DNA of 39,202 nt. It comes from a virus. Numbering within the stretch: position 1 is the stretch's first letter; the number at the start of each line of letters is the position of its first letter. The stretch covers positions 1 to 39,202 of the IMG/VR virus record IMGVR_UViG_3300032242_000655; one strand, 5' to 3'. The position numbers were made by a program, and so were the translations under genes. The notes under the pieces are model-generated. The model was not told the origin of the DNA, ran no database searches, and was given only the letters and a program-made list of their open reading frames with translations. Below, piece by piece: positions 20,055-27,485 of the stretch.

Positions 20055-20516
20055 ATGGAATACGACGTTCAGCTAGCCCAGCCACACATGGCGGAAGAAA
20101 TAACTGACGTTTTGCTTGAGGGTCGCGATGAGGGGTTCGTATTCCCCCCTGATCGGGAGATTGTGCTTGAGTTTGTAAAAAGCATTATGAACAAAAACGG
20201 CGGGTTGCTTGGCGTTATTGTCGGTGACAGCGGGATAGAGGGCGTCATTGGCGTCAAACTGGATAAATTTTGGTTTGCGGACCAATGGTATCTTGTTGAC
20301 TTGTTCACGTTTGTTCATCCGGAATTTCGGCGGTCAACACGTGCGAAGTGCCTGCTTGCATTTGCCAAGAAATGCGCAAAAGAAATGAATCTGCCGCTTC
20401 TCATGGGCATCATGTCCAATATCCGTACGGAAGCGAAGTCTCGGTTGTACGAGCGTCAGTTTGACCGTGCCGGGAACTACTTTGTTTACAATAAAGAAAG
20501 CGTTGGAGTTGTGTAA
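20055..20516 (+). CDS. GNAT-family acetyltransferase
   Basis: A 153-residue protein with the GNAT layout. An N-terminal strand and helix pair is followed by central strands (LLGVIVGDSGIEGVIGVKL, ~49-67). DLFTFVHPEFRRSTRAKCLL (~81-100) follows, with the strand and the basic acetyl-CoA phosphate-binding loop and helix. The C-terminal strand LPLLMGIM precedes a SRLYERQFDRAG helix. Such enzymes move an acetyl group from acetyl-CoA to an amine on a protein or small molecule. AAAGGAG precedes ATG 20055. It is embedded among virion genes, so its substrate may be a virion or host protein; this is inference. Confidence 0.82.
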   Translation: MEYDVQLAQPHMAEEITDVLLEGRDEGFVFPPDREIVLEFVKSIMNKNGGLLGVIVGDSGIEGVIGVKLDKFWFADQWYLVDLFTFVHPEFRRSTRAKCLLAFAKKCAKEMNLPLLMGIMSNIRTEAKSRLYERQFDRAGNYFVYNKESVGVV

Positions 20517-23500
20517 TGGGTGGCGGCAGCGGTTCACAATCATCTACATCGACGTATAGTCCACCGCCCGAAGTAGCGGCAGCGTATAAACAGCTATTGA
20601 GCAATTCTCAACCGTTGTTTACGGCTCCATACCAGCCGTACACCGCTGGTAAAGCCGAAACTGCGCAAAGCACGGTTCCCCTTACTGTTGCCCCACAGAC
20701 CCCCAACCAAGTGGCGGCTGGACAGAATATCGCGTCTTTAGCGGGCTATTACCAGCCCTACGCTAACGCAGCTACCGACCTTATTCAGCAGGGCTCGCAA
20801 CCTATCCAGTTGCAGCAGTTTAACAACCAATCTGTTGGACAGTACATGTCCCCATTCATGCAGAATGTTATGGGTTCGACTGTCGCGAACATTAACGAAA
20901 CCAACGCGCAACAGCAGCAACAGGTGTTGGGTAACGCTATAGCCAAAGGTGCGTATGGCGGGGACCGTTCTGGTATTGCGCAGTCTGAATTGGCTCGTCA
21001 ACAGAACCTCGCGAACAATGCGACTCTCGCGAACATTGCGAACACGGGGTACAATTCCGCGCTGGGTCAGTTTAACCAAATGAACCAGCAGGGTTTGCAA
21101 TCCCAATTAGCTAGCGGGCAGTTGGCGCAGTCTGGCGCGTCTGCATTGGGCAATTTGGGCACTATGGGTCAGAATGCTGCCTTGCAGCAGGCACAGGCTC
21201 AATATGGCGTTGGGGGCGGTCAGCAACAGCAGAGGCAGGCGGAACTGTCTACCGCTTACCAGAATTATTTGAACCAGATTGCGTATCCTTACCAACAGGC
21301 GCAGTTTGAGGGTGGTCTTATATCCGGTGTTGCATCCGGCATGGGCGGCACAAATTCATCTACTGCTACTCCAGCGCAGCCCGGTGGCTTAAACCAAGTC
21401 ATTGGTGGGCTTGGTGCGCTTGGGTCGTTGGGGAGCTTGTTTGGTGGTAGTGGCGGTGCTGCTGGTGCTGGCGGGTTTGGCGGCATGATGAGCGGGATTG
21501 GCACTGGTATTGGCAGCGCGATGGGTGGGATTGGGGAAGGATTGGGCGCAGTTATGTCTGCTATTCCTTTCATTTCCGATGAGCGTGCAAAAGAAAATAT
21601 TCATCCGGTAGGCAAAACTTTCGACGGGCAGAATATTTACAAATTTAACTACAAAGGCGACCGCGCTACTCAGATTGGTTTGATGGCGCAAGAGGTTGAG
21701 CATCACCACCCTGCCGCTGTTGGCGAATGGCATGGTTTGAAGACCGTCAACTATGACGAAGCGACAAAAGGCGCGGAACACCGTGGGCACTTTGCGCAAG
21801 GCGGCGATGTGCAACAGCAGCAAGGTTTGCTGGGCGTCAGCCCAATTGCTGGCATGACTGCATCTTCGTATTTGCCTACGGGTCCGATGGCAATGGCTAA
21901 CCCCAAAATGCCGCAGACTCCTGCACCAGCGGGTAAGAATCCCAATGATATTTCAAAAGATCAGTTGTCGGATGCCGTAAAGGGTATCCGTACTTTGATG
22001 GGTAAGCCTGACCCAACTTCTAAACCCGACGCTAAAGCAACAACTGCGGGCGTTGCTTCTGCCGCTGCTGCGAATACTCCGCCTGCTGGCGTGGCTCCAA
22101 CACCACCAGTCGAACCTATTACCCCCATTCAACAGGATGCTTTTGGTGGGCGTATTCATCATTATGGTGCGGGCGGCGTTGCGGACACTGCGCCGGATAC
22201 CAACATTACGGCTACATCTGCACACCATTCCCCTTCTTTTGACGCGTTAAAAAGTTCTCAACAGCGTTACACGCAGTCTTTGCCTAACGCTGGCGTTGTT
22301 CCCACTCCAAGCACATCTTCTGGCGCGGCCCCAATCGGTGGCGCACCCGTTGACTCCCATGCTCAGGCTTTAAAAAACCCCGGCTTGGCATACAGCAATT
22401 ACAATTCTTTGGCGAACAGCGGTAAAGCCTCTCTTGCCGACCTTCAAAGCGCATACGATTTGTATATGCACTCGCATGCTACGCCAGAAGAAATTACCCA
22501 AGTTCAAATGGGGTCAGGCACTACAGCGAAACCCGCTGTTTCCGAACCCGATTCCGGCGGCGGTTCTTCTTATGAGCCCGGTGGCGGTGGTGGAAGTAAT
22601 GCTGCTGGCGGTCGAATTCACGCGCATCATTTCGGTGCGGGTGGGGGCATTTTAAATTATTCTGGGTTACCCACCAAAAAAAGTGTGGAAGAGGGGGCGC
22701 AAAGTGTTATCGGGTCCGGCGCAAGTTATGATCCCACACTGGCGTCCATCGCATCGCAAGATTATTTGCCCGAACAGGCCGCTCGTGGCGGCGTGATTGG
22801 TCGCGAACACCACGCTGGTCCGGATGATACAAACGGTCAGAGCAACGTTGTTGGCAACGGTCCATCACCCGACGAGGTTATTGCACAGGCTCTACCGCGC
22901 ATTAAACAATTGGAAAGCGGCGGGAAGAATATCCCCAACGCAAGTGGGTCTGCCGCTTATGGCCCATACCAGTTTATGCCCGGCACTTTTGCGGGAACCG
23001 CACAGCGGCACCCCGAGGCCGGGGTTGATCCAAACGATTACAAAAATGCCGAGGCGCAAGAAAAGATTGCGCAGTACCATGCCAAAGACCTTTCGGAAGC
23101 GTACAAAAAAGCAAATCTTCCGTTTGACAACAACGCATTGCGCATGGGTTGGGCATTTGGCGAACAGGGTGGCCCCGCATTTATGAAAGGTGCAGCCGCT
23201 GATCCGAATGCACCATCGACAAGTCTTGCTGGTCAAGCCGCTATTAAAGCCAACCCATCATGGTTCTTTAACCCAGATGGCTCGACCAAAACTGCGGCCC
23301 AGACAATTTCGTTCCTTACGGGCGGCATGAATGGCCCAGCACCTCGCGCATCTGCCTCTGAAGGGCAGTCGCAGGGGCAGGAACAGCGTGGACAAGGCCC
23401 AATGCAGCTTAACCAGACACCTACCAAAGAAGGGTTGTCTGGCATGCTCGGAATTTCTATGACGGATAACCAGCGTCTGGCGGCGTTTAATGCGTTTGCT

Positions 23501-24667
23501 CGTATGGCTGGAACCCCGGGTAAATTTGGTATGGGTCTAGCTGCTGCTGCCGATACGTATTCCAAAACCCTTATGGAAGCGAACAAACAGCAGCGCGAAG
23601 GTTACACGGCTGAAAGCGAAGCGAAACTGCGTGGCGAACAGACCACATCGCAGCGCGTCAAGCAGGAAGGCATGACTACGCAAGTGCGTAAAACCGACCC
23701 CGTCACTGGCGCAGTTACCATCGAAAACCAGATTATTCCTCCCGGCCAGTCAGGAACATTTGCTGGGCAGGGTCAGGCTGGTGCGCCAGCAGGGGGCCAA
23801 GCGGCTCCCAACAATGCTCCTTCGGCTCCGTCCGCTCCGCAATCTGCAAAAGAAATTAACTTGCTTGGCCCCGTCCAGTCCGGCGAGGATGGCGCATCAA
23901 AGTTTGATACCTTGCAAAAACTTGCGGACGAGGCACTTAAAACCAACGCAGCGACACCCGCAGAAGCTCAAAAAATGTATCTTAGCAAAAGTGCTGAATT
24001 GTATGACAATCAAAAAGCGGCAAACGCATCACGCCCAGATTTGAAATCCGCCATTCAATCGGTTTCGGAAATGGGTGGAGGTGGCCTCACGGGTGCTGGC
24101 CCGGCTGCAAATTACCGTACAGCAGTTGCAAATTACATTAACTTGGGGTTGCGCAGTTTTGGTGTTGAAGGTGGCATTAGCGAACGTGATATTGCCAACA
24201 AACAGATTCTTGATAAGCTCGCGACCATTCAAGCTAACCAAGGTCAAGGCAGTAACGCTGCCCGTTGGTTGGAAGGCGTTAAAAACGCATACCCTAGTAC
24301 CGAAATGACCGAACAGGCCGCAAAAAACTTGACCGCATCATTGATGGTTACCAATACCATGCATAACGATATGGGTAACTTCGCAAACGAGTACGGCAAG
24401 AGAACTTACAATACGGGGTACAACGTTTCCCAAGCGTTCAACCAAGTCAATCCTGCTAATCTGTACACGCAGGCGAAGGATGACATTGCTCGGTTGATGA
24501 TTGAAAAGAATGGCATGATCCCCACCAAGGATGGCCGCTCGGTTCGTGGCAACCCTGTCTCCGCACTCGCTATGGGCGTCATGACTCCCGAACAGTTTAA
24601 CGATTACGCGCAACGCAATGGTTCAAAAATTGCAAATCTGTCTCGGTTCGTAACTGGCGGGGAATAA
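20516..24667 (+). CDS. Giant internal virion protein: S74-like segment and lytic transglycosylase
   Basis: A 1383-residue protein. Residues ~1-270 are Gln/Asn-rich and helical. ~280-345 is a Gly/Ala-rich hydrophobic stretch that could insert into a membrane. ISDERAKENIHPVGKTFDGQ (353-372) begins an S74-type segment with Ser354 and Lys359, continuing through GLMAQEVEHHHPAAV to ~415. ~420-780 is low-complexity with several GG-R-I/V motifs. ~785-930 is a soluble lytic transglycosylase-type domain (IKQLESGGKN with likely catalytic Glu800, then AAYGPYQFMPGTF). A long helical C-terminus follows. Ejected proteins of short-tailed phages often carry such a wall-cutting domain. ATG 20516 overlaps the GNAT stop. 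Confidence 0.85.
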   Translation: MGGGSGSQSSTSTYSPPPEVAAAYKQLLSNSQPLFTAPYQPYTAGKAETAQSTVPLTVAPQTPNQVAAGQNIASLAGYYQPYANAATDLIQQGSQPIQLQQFNNQSVGQYMSPFMQNVMGSTVANINETNAQQQQQVLGNAIAKGAYGGDRSGIAQSELARQQNLANNATLANIANTGYNSALGQFNQMNQQGLQSQLASGQLAQSGASALGNLGTMGQNAALQQAQAQYGVGGGQQQQRQAELSTAYQNYLNQIAYPYQQAQFEGGLISGVASGMGGTNSSTATPAQPGGLNQVIGGLGALGSLGSLFGGSGGAAGAGGFGGMMSGIGTGIGSAMGGIGEGLGAVMSAIPFISDERAKENIHPVGKTFDGQNIYKFNYKGDRATQIGLMAQEVEHHHPAAVGEWHGLKTVNYDEATKGAEHRGHFAQGGDVQQQQGLLGVSPIAGMTASSYLPTGPMAMANPKMPQTPAPAGKNPNDISKDQLSDAVKGIRTLMGKPDPTSKPDAKATTAGVASAAAANTPPAGVAPTPPVEPITPIQQDAFGGRIHHYGAGGVADTAPDTNITATSAHHSPSFDALKSSQQRYTQSLPNAGVVPTPSTSSGAAPIGGAPVDSHAQALKNPGLAYSNYNSLANSGKASLADLQSAYDLYMHSHATPEEITQVQMGSGTTAKPAVSEPDSGGGSSYEPGGGGGSNAAGGRIHAHHFGAGGGILNYSGLPTKKSVEEGAQSVIGSGASYDPTLASIASQDYLPEQAARGGVIGREHHAGPDDTNGQSNVVGNGPSPDEVIAQALPRIKQLESGGKNIPNASGSAAYGPYQFMPGTFAGTAQRHPEAGVDPNDYKNAEAQEKIAQYHAKDLSEAYKKANLPFDNNALRMGWAFGEQGGPAFMKGAAADPNAPSTSLAGQAAIKANPSWFFNPDGSTKTAAQTISFLTGGMNGPAPRASASEGQSQGQEQRGQGPMQLNQTPTKEGLSGMLGISMTDNQRLAAFNAFARMAGTPGKFGMGLAAAADTYSKTLMEANKQQREGYTAESEAKLRGEQTTSQRVKQEGMTTQVRKTDPVTGAVTIENQIIPPGQSGTFAGQGQAGAPAGGQAAPNNAPSAPSAPQSAKEINLLGPVQSGEDGASKFDTLQKLADEALKTNAATPAEAQKMYLSKSAELYDNQKAANASRPDLKSAIQSVSEMGGGGLTGAGPAANYRTAVANYINLGLRSFGVEGGISERDIANKQILDKLATIQANQGQGSNAARWLEGVKNAYPSTEMTEQAAKNLTASLMVTNTMHNDMGNFANEYGKRTYNTGYNVSQAFNQVNPANLYTQAKDDIARLMIEKNGMIPTKDGRSVRGNPVSALAMGVMTPEQFNDYAQRNGSKIANLSRFVTGGE

Positions 24668-24668
24668 C

Positions 24669-27485
24669 ATGGCTAACCAATTTGATCCCGACGCAGTTTT
24701 TGGTAAGCCAACAACTTCTCAGCCGCAAGGTGATGGGCAAGGGGCTCCCGCTGGAAAATCGTCGGGAACCATTGATCCTGATGCTATATTTGGCAAACCC
24801 GGACAATCCGCTCCGGGATCAGGCAAGCCATCTTCTTCCGAGGACCAAGAATACGAATCTAAAGTTTTGTCTTTGATGCCAAAAGCGCGTGAGTTTATTG
24901 ACAAGTCAAGTGATCCAACAGTGCGTGGGGCTTCGGGAGCTTTTGTCGAAGGTTTAAGTAAACCGTTAGAATGGGTTGGTGGGAAAACTGCAATTCGTGG
25001 CGCAATGGCTGCATTCGGCGCGGGCGAAGGCAAAAATTTTTCCGAGCGGTATAGGCAATTGAAAGCGGAAGATGAAGCCGTTAATCGTGCGTATGAAGAA
25101 AAACATGCGCTTGCAAAAGGTGCGGGGGAACTTACTGGCGTCGTCGGGACAACTTTGCTTGCCCCGGGCCTGTCGGTTGCTGCTCCTGTAGAAGCTGCTG
25201 CCGTAGCGCGTGGGATTGGTCCTACAGCCGCTAAAGTGGCTGGCATGGGCGCAGAAGGTGCTGCATTTGGCGCGGGAACCGCCGCTGGCGAACAGGCATT
25301 TGGCACCAAAACTGAACACGACGAGCCGGGCATTATAAATTCCGCGCTGGTTGGCGGTGCAGGCGGTGCTGGTCTTGGCCTTATCGGTAAAGGTGTATCA
25401 TCCGCGTATAGCAACTATGCTCCAGAATGGATTAAAGGCGCACTTAGCAAAGACTATCAGACCAAAACATTCTCTCAAAAATGGTTGCAAGACATTGAAA
25501 ACGGTTCCGCAAAAATGGATTTGGCGGAATATAAAAAAGCCATCGAGAACGGTCAGCCTGTTAGTTTGCTAGATGTTGGCGGGGATGCCACCCAAGAGTG
25601 GCTTCGTAGGTCTTTTAAAGGCCGTGCGCAAGCACTGGATGAATTCCAAGTAAAGGCGTCGCAACGGCTTGAAGGCGAAGGCGAACGGTTCGATGCATTC
25701 CTGCAAAAGTATGCGGGAACTGATGGCACAATCAACCAAGATCAGATTCGACAAGCGGCAAAAGACTACGCCGAAAAGATCAATGACGCGAATTACCAAC
25801 GTGCTGCATGGCGACCCGAAAACGGTAAGGGGTCATGGAAAGACAGTTGGATGACTCATTTTGACGATCCCGATGTTGCGGGCGCGTTTGGTGATGCCGT
25901 TTCTACAATGAAACGTAAATACGGCGACGATTTTGTTAGCCCGCTATCTTCTGCGGGGGAAGCCTCCATTGATAGCCTTCTTGGCAAGGGGTTAGACAAA
26001 AAAGCCATCCAGCATTTGAAAAACGCGGGCATTGAAACCGTTGGCGATATAGCGGGCAAAACGGAAGCGGAATTGTTAGATGCAATTGCTGTTTCTGCAA
26101 AATCTGATAGCCATCAAGCGCAAACTGCCGCAAAACGGCAAACGCAAAAACTTGTCGATTCCGTCATGTCCGCCACGAAGGGCATTGATTCCGAGGCGGC
26201 AGTAATCAATCCAGAACACGTCAACGTGGAGTTTTTAGACCGCTGGCAACGCGCATTAAATTATCGTGCCGAATCGCTTGCTAAAAACCGTCCAGAGCTA
26301 AACATGGACTTTGCCAAACGTTTGCAAGAATTGCGCGGTGACATTATCGGGTCGTTAAAAAACCCAAAAAGTTCGTTGTATAATGAGGCCTTTGAAGCTG
26401 CTCACACGCAGGCGGCACAGTTCCATCGCGAAAACGATGCCTTCTCGGCGGGGCAAGAGCTTTTGCGGAAACTTGCAAACGGGGAAAAAGCATCTGAAAT
26501 TGCAAACACTACCGCCAATATGACCCAGCAGGAAAAAGAATTTTTTACCAAGGGCATTTTGGGTCAAATGGTAGAACAGGGTTTGCAAGGCGGGAGCGAT
26601 GGGCGCGGCATTAAATACCAAACGCTTAAAAATTGGTTGTCAAATCCGCACGTCAACACTGCTATGAACAATACGTTGGGCGAAGCTCAATTTACAAATC
26701 TTCGAGCCTACCTCAAGGCAGAAGTGGCAATGGGTGATGCCGCGAGAATTGCGAATTCATATGGGAAAACCAATACGGATTATCGTGGGTTTCTTCCATA
26801 CATGCTTTTTGGCGGCGCAGAACACTATTTGACATCTCTTGGCGGGTTTGTATCCCCGTTTACTCTCGCTGCTTATCAGGCGGCGGATTATTACGCGGGG
26901 CGAAAGTTTGCAACATCCCTTGCCGAAAAAATGATGACGCAAGACCCCAAAATGGTTGAACAGGCAATTGATTCAATTCAAAAAAACCCAAAGATGGCTT
27001 CGTATTTTTCGCAAGTGTTAGGAAAGGCGTTGCCTTCAATGGTCGGGGCTATGTCCGGTAGCCCGCCCGTTCAGCATCATGCTGCTGGTGGCCCTGTACA
27101 AAAATACGCGTTTGGCGGTTCTGCCAATTCAATGCGTATGGTAAACAAATCCGTTCACATGCCAAAACCGGGCGATGAAGATTTTGTTGGCCCAACAATG
27201 ACCAATTCGTCATATGACCCGAATAGGTCCGGCGTGTTTGACAAATTGAACATGTTTGGTGAGCGGAACATTCATTGGACCCCTGACCTTGGAAACGCGT
27301 CATCTCGCGGGTATAAGGTTGATAAAACTGGTCGCACGATGCGGTCTACTGGCGGTCGTATCCCCGAAGCGGACAAACTGTTCAAGCAGGCGAAGAAGTA
27401 CGTAGATAGTCATACTAAAGGCCTCCTAAATGTCCCCGATGATGCTATTGTTAAAGCACTTCGTGTCGCGCAGAAAAAGGTGTGA
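24669..27485 (+). CDS. Large internal / DNA-ejection protein
   Basis: A 938-residue protein starting one base after the previous stop. Two N-terminal decapeptides nearly repeat (FDPDAVFGKP at 5-14, IDPDAIFGKP at 35-44). Ala/Gly-rich hydrophobic segments (~145-245) could cross a membrane. A long, mainly helical body follows. The C-terminal end again has GG motifs (HAAGGPVQKYAFGGS near 804-818, STGGRIPEADKLFKQAKKY near 892-910). Position after the transglycosylase-bearing protein, size and helix content fit an ejection protein, like gp15/gp16 of T7-like phages, which are expelled into the cell before DNA. No enzyme motif is seen. Confidence 0.78.
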   Translation: MANQFDPDAVFGKPTTSQPQGDGQGAPAGKSSGTIDPDAIFGKPGQSAPGSGKPSSSEDQEYESKVLSLMPKAREFIDKSSDPTVRGASGAFVEGLSKPLEWVGGKTAIRGAMAAFGAGEGKNFSERYRQLKAEDEAVNRAYEEKHALAKGAGELTGVVGTTLLAPGLSVAAPVEAAAVARGIGPTAAKVAGMGAEGAAFGAGTAAGEQAFGTKTEHDEPGIINSALVGGAGGAGLGLIGKGVSSAYSNYAPEWIKGALSKDYQTKTFSQKWLQDIENGSAKMDLAEYKKAIENGQPVSLLDVGGDATQEWLRRSFKGRAQALDEFQVKASQRLEGEGERFDAFLQKYAGTDGTINQDQIRQAAKDYAEKINDANYQRAAWRPENGKGSWKDSWMTHFDDPDVAGAFGDAVSTMKRKYGDDFVSPLSSAGEASIDSLLGKGLDKKAIQHLKNAGIETVGDIAGKTEAELLDAIAVSAKSDSHQAQTAAKRQTQKLVDSVMSATKGIDSEAAVINPEHVNVEFLDRWQRALNYRAESLAKNRPELNMDFAKRLQELRGDIIGSLKNPKSSLYNEAFEAAHTQAAQFHRENDAFSAGQELLRKLANGEKASEIANTTANMTQQEKEFFTKGILGQMVEQGLQGGSDGRGIKYQTLKNWLSNPHVNTAMNNTLGEAQFTNLRAYLKAEVAMGDAARIANSYGKTNTDYRGFLPYMLFGGAEHYLTSLGGFVSPFTLAAYQAADYYAGRKFATSLAEKMMTQDPKMVEQAIDSIQKNPKMASYFSQVLGKALPSMVGAMSGSPPVQHHAAGGPVQKYAFGGSANSMRMVNKSVHMPKPGDEDFVGPTMTNSSYDPNRSGVFDKLNMFGERNIHWTPDLGNASSRGYKVDKTGRTMRSTGGRIPEADKLFKQAKKYVDSHTKGLLNVPDDAIVKALRVAQKKV

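Follow-up and report, generated by a model that had tools for sequence, protein, structure and literature searches.

S74 (ICA) domains are known from fibers, where they are C-terminal trimer chaperones, and from MyRF. Phage examples include the tail spike and fiber domains of endoNF (3GW6), a long tail fiber (6F45) and a neck appendage protein (3GUD). Among the phage ejection proteins, which are known as hexamers or octamers and not as trimers, T7 gp16 (internal virion protein D) carries a transglycosylase-like domain, and to our knowledge it has no S74 module. In MyRF, a trimeric eukaryotic membrane transcription factor, the S74/ICA domain is internal and self-cleaving (PMC8326128, PMC3742443); the cleavage frees the N-terminal part and the domain stays on the C-terminal part (PMC8326128). 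The C-terminal helix (α-4) is the main driver of MyRF trimerization, and cleavage takes place in trimers only (PMC8326128). Our literature search found no paper in which S74 was connected with ejection proteins or internal virion proteins. Here, we describe an S74-type segment in the middle of a 1,383-amino-acid (aa) ejection protein, P0001, encoded in a 39,202-nucleotide stretch of viral DNA (IMG/VR record IMGVR_UViG_3300032242_000655, positions 1 to 39,202), the whole of which we call the window.

RESULTS

Domain organization of P0001

Peptidase_S74 (PF13884) was the sole Pfam domain found in P0001, matching residues 354 to 402 (positions 21575 to 21721, no stops) with 32.4 bits and an E value of 1.1e-7, where the curated Pfam cutoff is 22 bits. 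The S-D-x-x-x-K dyad corresponds to Ser354, whose codon begins at 21575, and Lys359. The match bears out the initial annotation, which had reported both residues in a segment internal to the protein, with about 960 residues and a transglycosylase domain after it. The latter was recovered as a transglycosylase-like domain by the PHROG search (Table 1) and by tblastn, which matched internal virion protein D in T7-like Aeromonas phages; a Pfam search of residues ~799 to 933 gave no transglycosylase match. This wall-cutting domain is exchanged among close relatives, with approximately 21 to 24% identity versus 77 to 93% in the N-terminal domain (relatives L003 and L004), and in relative L031 an SLT domain takes its place.

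The N-terminal domain is a homologue of podoviral DNA-ejection proteins, and its profile found no match among PDB sequences. Residues 84 to 420 match phrog_6121 and cover its 392-position profile up to position 391; thus, the S74 segment is the protein end in that family. In a model of residues 1 to 425 the overall pTM was 0.33, too low to support a fold search, and the S74 domain was still separate and well predicted behind a very-low-confidence linker. The part before the module had been described as membrane type, which our data do not support: the hydropathy scan upstream of Ser354 found no transmembrane segment, the maximum 19-residue Kyte-Doolittle mean in the sampled windows being 1.35 and under transmembrane hydropathy, and in most relatives this place is taken by a Thr/Gly-rich linker. 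All parts of P0001 are under purifying selection in dN/dS comparisons with relative L001, and the value for the linker at residues 421 to 794 is above those of the domains. Motifs of the GGRIHHYGAGG and GGPVQKYAFGG types recur in virion-protein linkers, at residues 544 and 698 of P0001, at residue 807 of P0003 and in most relatives. Pfam and PHROG searches gave no informative family match for P0003.

Table 1. Features of the P0001 locus, in window coordinates
Feature	Position	Strand	Basis
GNAT-like gene directly 5' of P0001 gene	20055..20516	+	Weak Acetyltransf_7 match, under cutoff
P0001, 1,383-aa ejection protein, best read as fused	20516..24667	+	Single stop-free ORF; GGAG 7 bases 5' of ATG
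N-terminal DNA-ejection-protein domain, residues 4-310, predicted largely α-helical	20525..21445	+	PHROG 4287 "DNA ejection protein," E 1.3e-21; long helices in low-confidence model
Gly/Ala-rich linker, residues 256-338, predicted disordered, not transmembrane	21281..21529	+	pLDDT <50 nearly throughout; hydropathy under transmembrane level
Predicted scissile bond, Ile353/Ser354	21572..21577	+	Analogy with MyRF P586/S587; P1 preference in modules
Mini-S74 domain, residues 354-420	21575..21775	+	PF13884, 32.4 bits; AlphaFold2 core pLDDT block means 93-97
Lys359 of Ser-Lys dyad	21590..21592	+	Ser, Asp and Lys of SDxxxK invariant, 147/147 distinct modules
Low-complexity linker with GGRIH..GG motifs, residues 421-794	21776..22897	+	Sequence; dN/dS 0.12 versus L001
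Transglycosylase-like domain, residues ~799-933	22910..23314	+	PHROG 4067, E 6.1e-9; internal virion protein D of T7-like phages
C-terminal part, residues 936-1383	23321..24664	+	PHROG search: weak match to unknown family only, E 0.015
P0003, 938 aa, 3' of P0001 gene; candidate third internal virion protein	24669..27485	+	Position only

A small S74 variant by sequence

A profile built from 90 modules matched the sequences of solved S74 domains, namely, the MyRF ICA domain (7DC3; E value of 1.4e-4) and the S16-type long tail fiber (6F45; E value of 3e-4). The AlphaFold2 model of the module, made with the 90-module alignment, has a confident core that shows the strands an S74 cutting ring should have; a short helix and a strand lead through a turn into two strands, a helix, two further strands and a fading helix. 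It aligned with predicted phage ICA-domain proteins with TM scores of up to 0.81, and predicted viral proteins of 1,329 to 1,487 aa named "intramolecular chaperone auto-processing domain containing protein" fit it well. A Foldseek search of the model against the PDB returned no solved S74 structure (best E value, 0.37). The designed protein ThreeFoil, which appeared as a PDB profile match of the module, was set aside because the matches were short and repetitive.

The module shares with the spike and fiber domains the PF13884 family, the SDxxxK dyad, an aromatic "I-Y-x-[FY]-x-Y" strand and a "G-[LFV]-x-A-Q-[ED]-V" helix region. However, it has 67 residues versus approximately 100 or more, a DGQ turn replaces the helix between the first two strands, and it is carried by a DNA-ejection protein rather than a fiber and is not C-terminal in the window. 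The long C-terminal trimerizing helix, a feature of the studied S74 members that lies outside the Pfam model, is absent from the module, where we found a short low-confidence helix only; natural C termini of modules (e.g., "...VNYGEAV") end directly after the last strand. No β-helical stalk was found 5' of the module, where the linker is predicted to be disordered. Because the trimer helix is missing, we file the module by its sequence as a mini-S74 variant, not as an established trimeric chaperone. Two more S74 domains in the same genome (28016 to 28198 and 11325 to 11480) are canonical and C-terminal on tail-fiber-like proteins.

With MyRF, P0001 shares the position of the domain inside a long protein and the spacing of the dyad (S587/K592 in MyRF), whereas the coiled-coil helix and β-helical stalk of MyRF are both missing in the module. 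The internal placement, which had been regarded as a departure from the usual use of the fold, thus has an established precedent in MyRF (PMC8326128, PMC3742443), and more than 90 related phage ORFs also have the module inside.

Conservation of the Ser-Lys dyad

Among module hits scoring at least 60 bits, S-D-x-x-x-K was kept in 191/191 (147 distinct), including 21 second copies within the same ORF. The peptide patterns used to find the modules (YKG- and AQEV-type stretches and parts of the N-terminal domain) excluded the Ser and Lys, so the dyad was not selected for by the search. In an alignment of 119 sequences and 69 columns, the only invariant positions were S, D, K and one each of G, A and P. 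Modules that lack the dyad were seen in L184 and L199 only; they score lower and have also lost the domain start and the second half. Both are eroded remnants in ejection ORFs of 2,488 and 2,297 aa, respectively.

The segment had the lowest dN/dS of all parts of P0001 in both comparisons made (0.042 versus L001 and 0.017 versus L002). The S74 match is above chance and under selection. The residue before the Ser (P1) is Phe in 75 of the 147 modules and Phe, Leu, Met or Ile in 114. In a canonical S74 control the dyad was kept in 17/17 domains, a small sample that contains a few mini-like hits and sets no loss rate. Given the strict dyad conservation in relatives, S74 activity is plausible, and the invariance, the erosion pattern, the low dN/dS and the P1 preference favor retained catalysis.

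Two-gene and fused states in relatives

In named phages, among them cultured podoviruses such as phiGT1 and phiM5, the module forms the C terminus of a protein of 303 to 468 aa: EPV2, Bradyrhizobium ppBeUSDA76-2, Sulfitobacter NYA-2014a and phiGT1, Sinorhizobium phiM5, Pseudomonas PAE2, Ochrobactrum OH, Rhizobium RHph_N2 and Microcystis Mwe-JY13. The stop of the ejection gene touches or nearly touches the next start in such two-gene phages, and in several of them the next gene is annotated as a peptidoglycan hydrolase, endolysin or internal virion protein. The PHROG 4287 and 6121 proteins (phiM5 Sm_phiM5_27, phiGT1_17, EPV2 gp27 and Ochrobactrum phage OH p40) belong to this homologous ejection family and have the same mini-S74. 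PHROG 4287 in phiM5 covers both the ejection domain and the C-terminal S74, GenBank notes for phiGT1 record a C-terminal S74 match, and the phiM5 homologues, alone among those found, are annotated as "detected in phage particle proteome."

Gene order is common to the window and its relatives: a tail or stabilization gene, a GNAT-like gene, the ejection gene and a wall hydrolase or internal virion protein gene. Several two-gene phages have the GNAT/acyltransferase gene just before the S74 ejection gene, and in some relatives it is missing or unlabeled. What differs is the boundary after the module, where the next gene is separate in the two-gene phages and fused in the window. The hydrolase-like domain of P0001 is related to that of T7 gp16 but follows another kind of ejection domain in the same chain.

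Across all complete ORFs of the loci fetched, the module was at most 13 aa from the ORF end in 20, and in 14 of these the next gene started -3 to +4 bases from the stop. In 93 others, some with two copies, it was internal with at least 242 residues after it. Since modules sit either at the ORF end or deep inside and none sits between, the most fitting reading of the window protein is that an ejection protein ending in a mini-S74 has been fused to the ejection protein that follows. MW202675 is a fused example in GenBank. Proteins of 142 to 291 aa that end in a mini-S74, some without a large gene directly after them, were seen in Rhodobacter-type and other genome contigs (L117, L118 and L120 to L122) and are possibly another use of the module.

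Gain, loss and duplication of the module

Of the complete ORFs that have the N-terminal domain, 106 are distinct and nearly all of these are long; 73 carry one module, 17 carry two and 16 carry none. In the module-less group, made up of L004 and 15 other relatives, nearly all still have one long ORF, and the ejection domain leads through a short Gly-rich stretch into a linker of the GGR..Y..GG type. No S74 domain was found in the whole 45-kb record of L004. The window protein and L004 are sisters in the maximum-likelihood tree (support, 100/99), and the next branch, L125, is also without a module. Absence of the module needs 7 changes on this tree, at least 6 of them forced by supported branches. 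For this tree the bootstrap had not fully converged, near-identical relatives that bear S74 (L001 to L003, for example) were thinned out, and L184 and L199 were scored as having one module. The module has been gained and lost repeatedly across the relatives.

Both dyads are intact in the two-module ORFs L038, L039, L040, L043 to L045, L047 to L049, L052, L054, L059, L063, L065, L087, L089, L099, L103, L104, L106, L108, L109 and L183. The stretches before the second copies are Ala/Gly-rich or mildly hydrophobic, and second copies are less alike (median identity, 0.55) than first copies (0.70).

DISCUSSION

We propose that a 67-residue S74 cassette, which in its native setting ends a podoviral DNA-ejection protein, came to lie in the middle of P0001 through fusion with the next gene, which would encode a wall-hydrolyzing ejection protein. 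The cassette is predicted to form a small independent domain carried by a flexible linker, and the chain would be cut most likely between Ile353 and Ser354, with Ser354 as the nucleophile and Lys359 as the base. We infer that cutting would probably take place once the oligomer has assembled, either before the protein enters the head or as it does so. The N-terminal ejection protein would be released, and the cassette would remain at the N terminus of the hydrolase part. We hold this account, cutting included, to be more likely than not, weighing the strong evidence from the dyad against the real obstacle that the trimer parts are missing. The absence of the C-terminal trimer helix and the stalk, together with the module-less close relatives, counts against cleavage as an essential step, and cutting would rather be an aid to maturation. 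The hexameric or octameric state of known ejection proteins and the Foldseek search, which returned no solved S74 structure, also weigh against the account. Since close relatives without the module keep one ORF, separating the halves by the module is not required for the family. The suggestion that the module exists to split the two halves is further weakened by its retention at the C terminus in two-gene phages.

The same retention, where the halves need no separating, is what would be expected if the module were a noncutting folding or docking domain, its S74 fold and peptide-gripping ring holding ejection subunits or loading the procapsid while the long protein stays intact. The missing trimerizing helix and stalk and the long single ORFs without a module as natural relatives also fit such a domain. 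However, pure docking leaves unexplained why Ser and Lys are invariant in 147/147 modules when most positions vary, and why dyad loss coincides with erosion of the whole module; we regard a noncutting role as possible and clearly less likely than self-cleavage. An inert passenger of the gene fusion, drifting to loss, could account for the 7 changes in the tree and for the two remnants in L184 and L199, but it is disfavored by how strongly purifying selection acts on the segment in the window lineage, by the invariant dyad and by the high-confidence fold, and we consider it improbable. Finally, two products could arise without self-cleavage if the C-terminal half were made separately from an internal start, much as the two-gene relatives make their halves separately. 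Only two internal start candidates have a ribosome-binding-like site, in both cases a weak AGGA: the one at residue 347 has a spacing of 12 and the one at residue 1053 a spacing of 4. Neither is just after the module, and we hold this route to be the least probable of all.

Returning to self-cleavage, a broader and more doubtful extension is that the ejection ORFs of the relatives are self-processing polyproteins, in which zero to two mini-S74 modules would act as exchangeable separators. Two or three ejection proteins would then be released from a single ORF without the trimeric coiled coil on which studied S74 proteins depend.

The finding also bears on annotation: ejection genes of phiM5 and of Bradyrhizobium and Ochrobactrum phages are labeled as tail fiber or tailspike genes, apparently owing to the S74 domain. 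A mini-S74 without the trimer helix but with a strictly kept dyad, present in zero to two copies on ejection proteins, raises the question of whether S74 cutting needs trimers. It also raises the question of whether self-cleavage matures phage ejection proteins; in P22, a host protease carries out the maturation of gp7 (PMC8402733), so such a self-contained route would be new.
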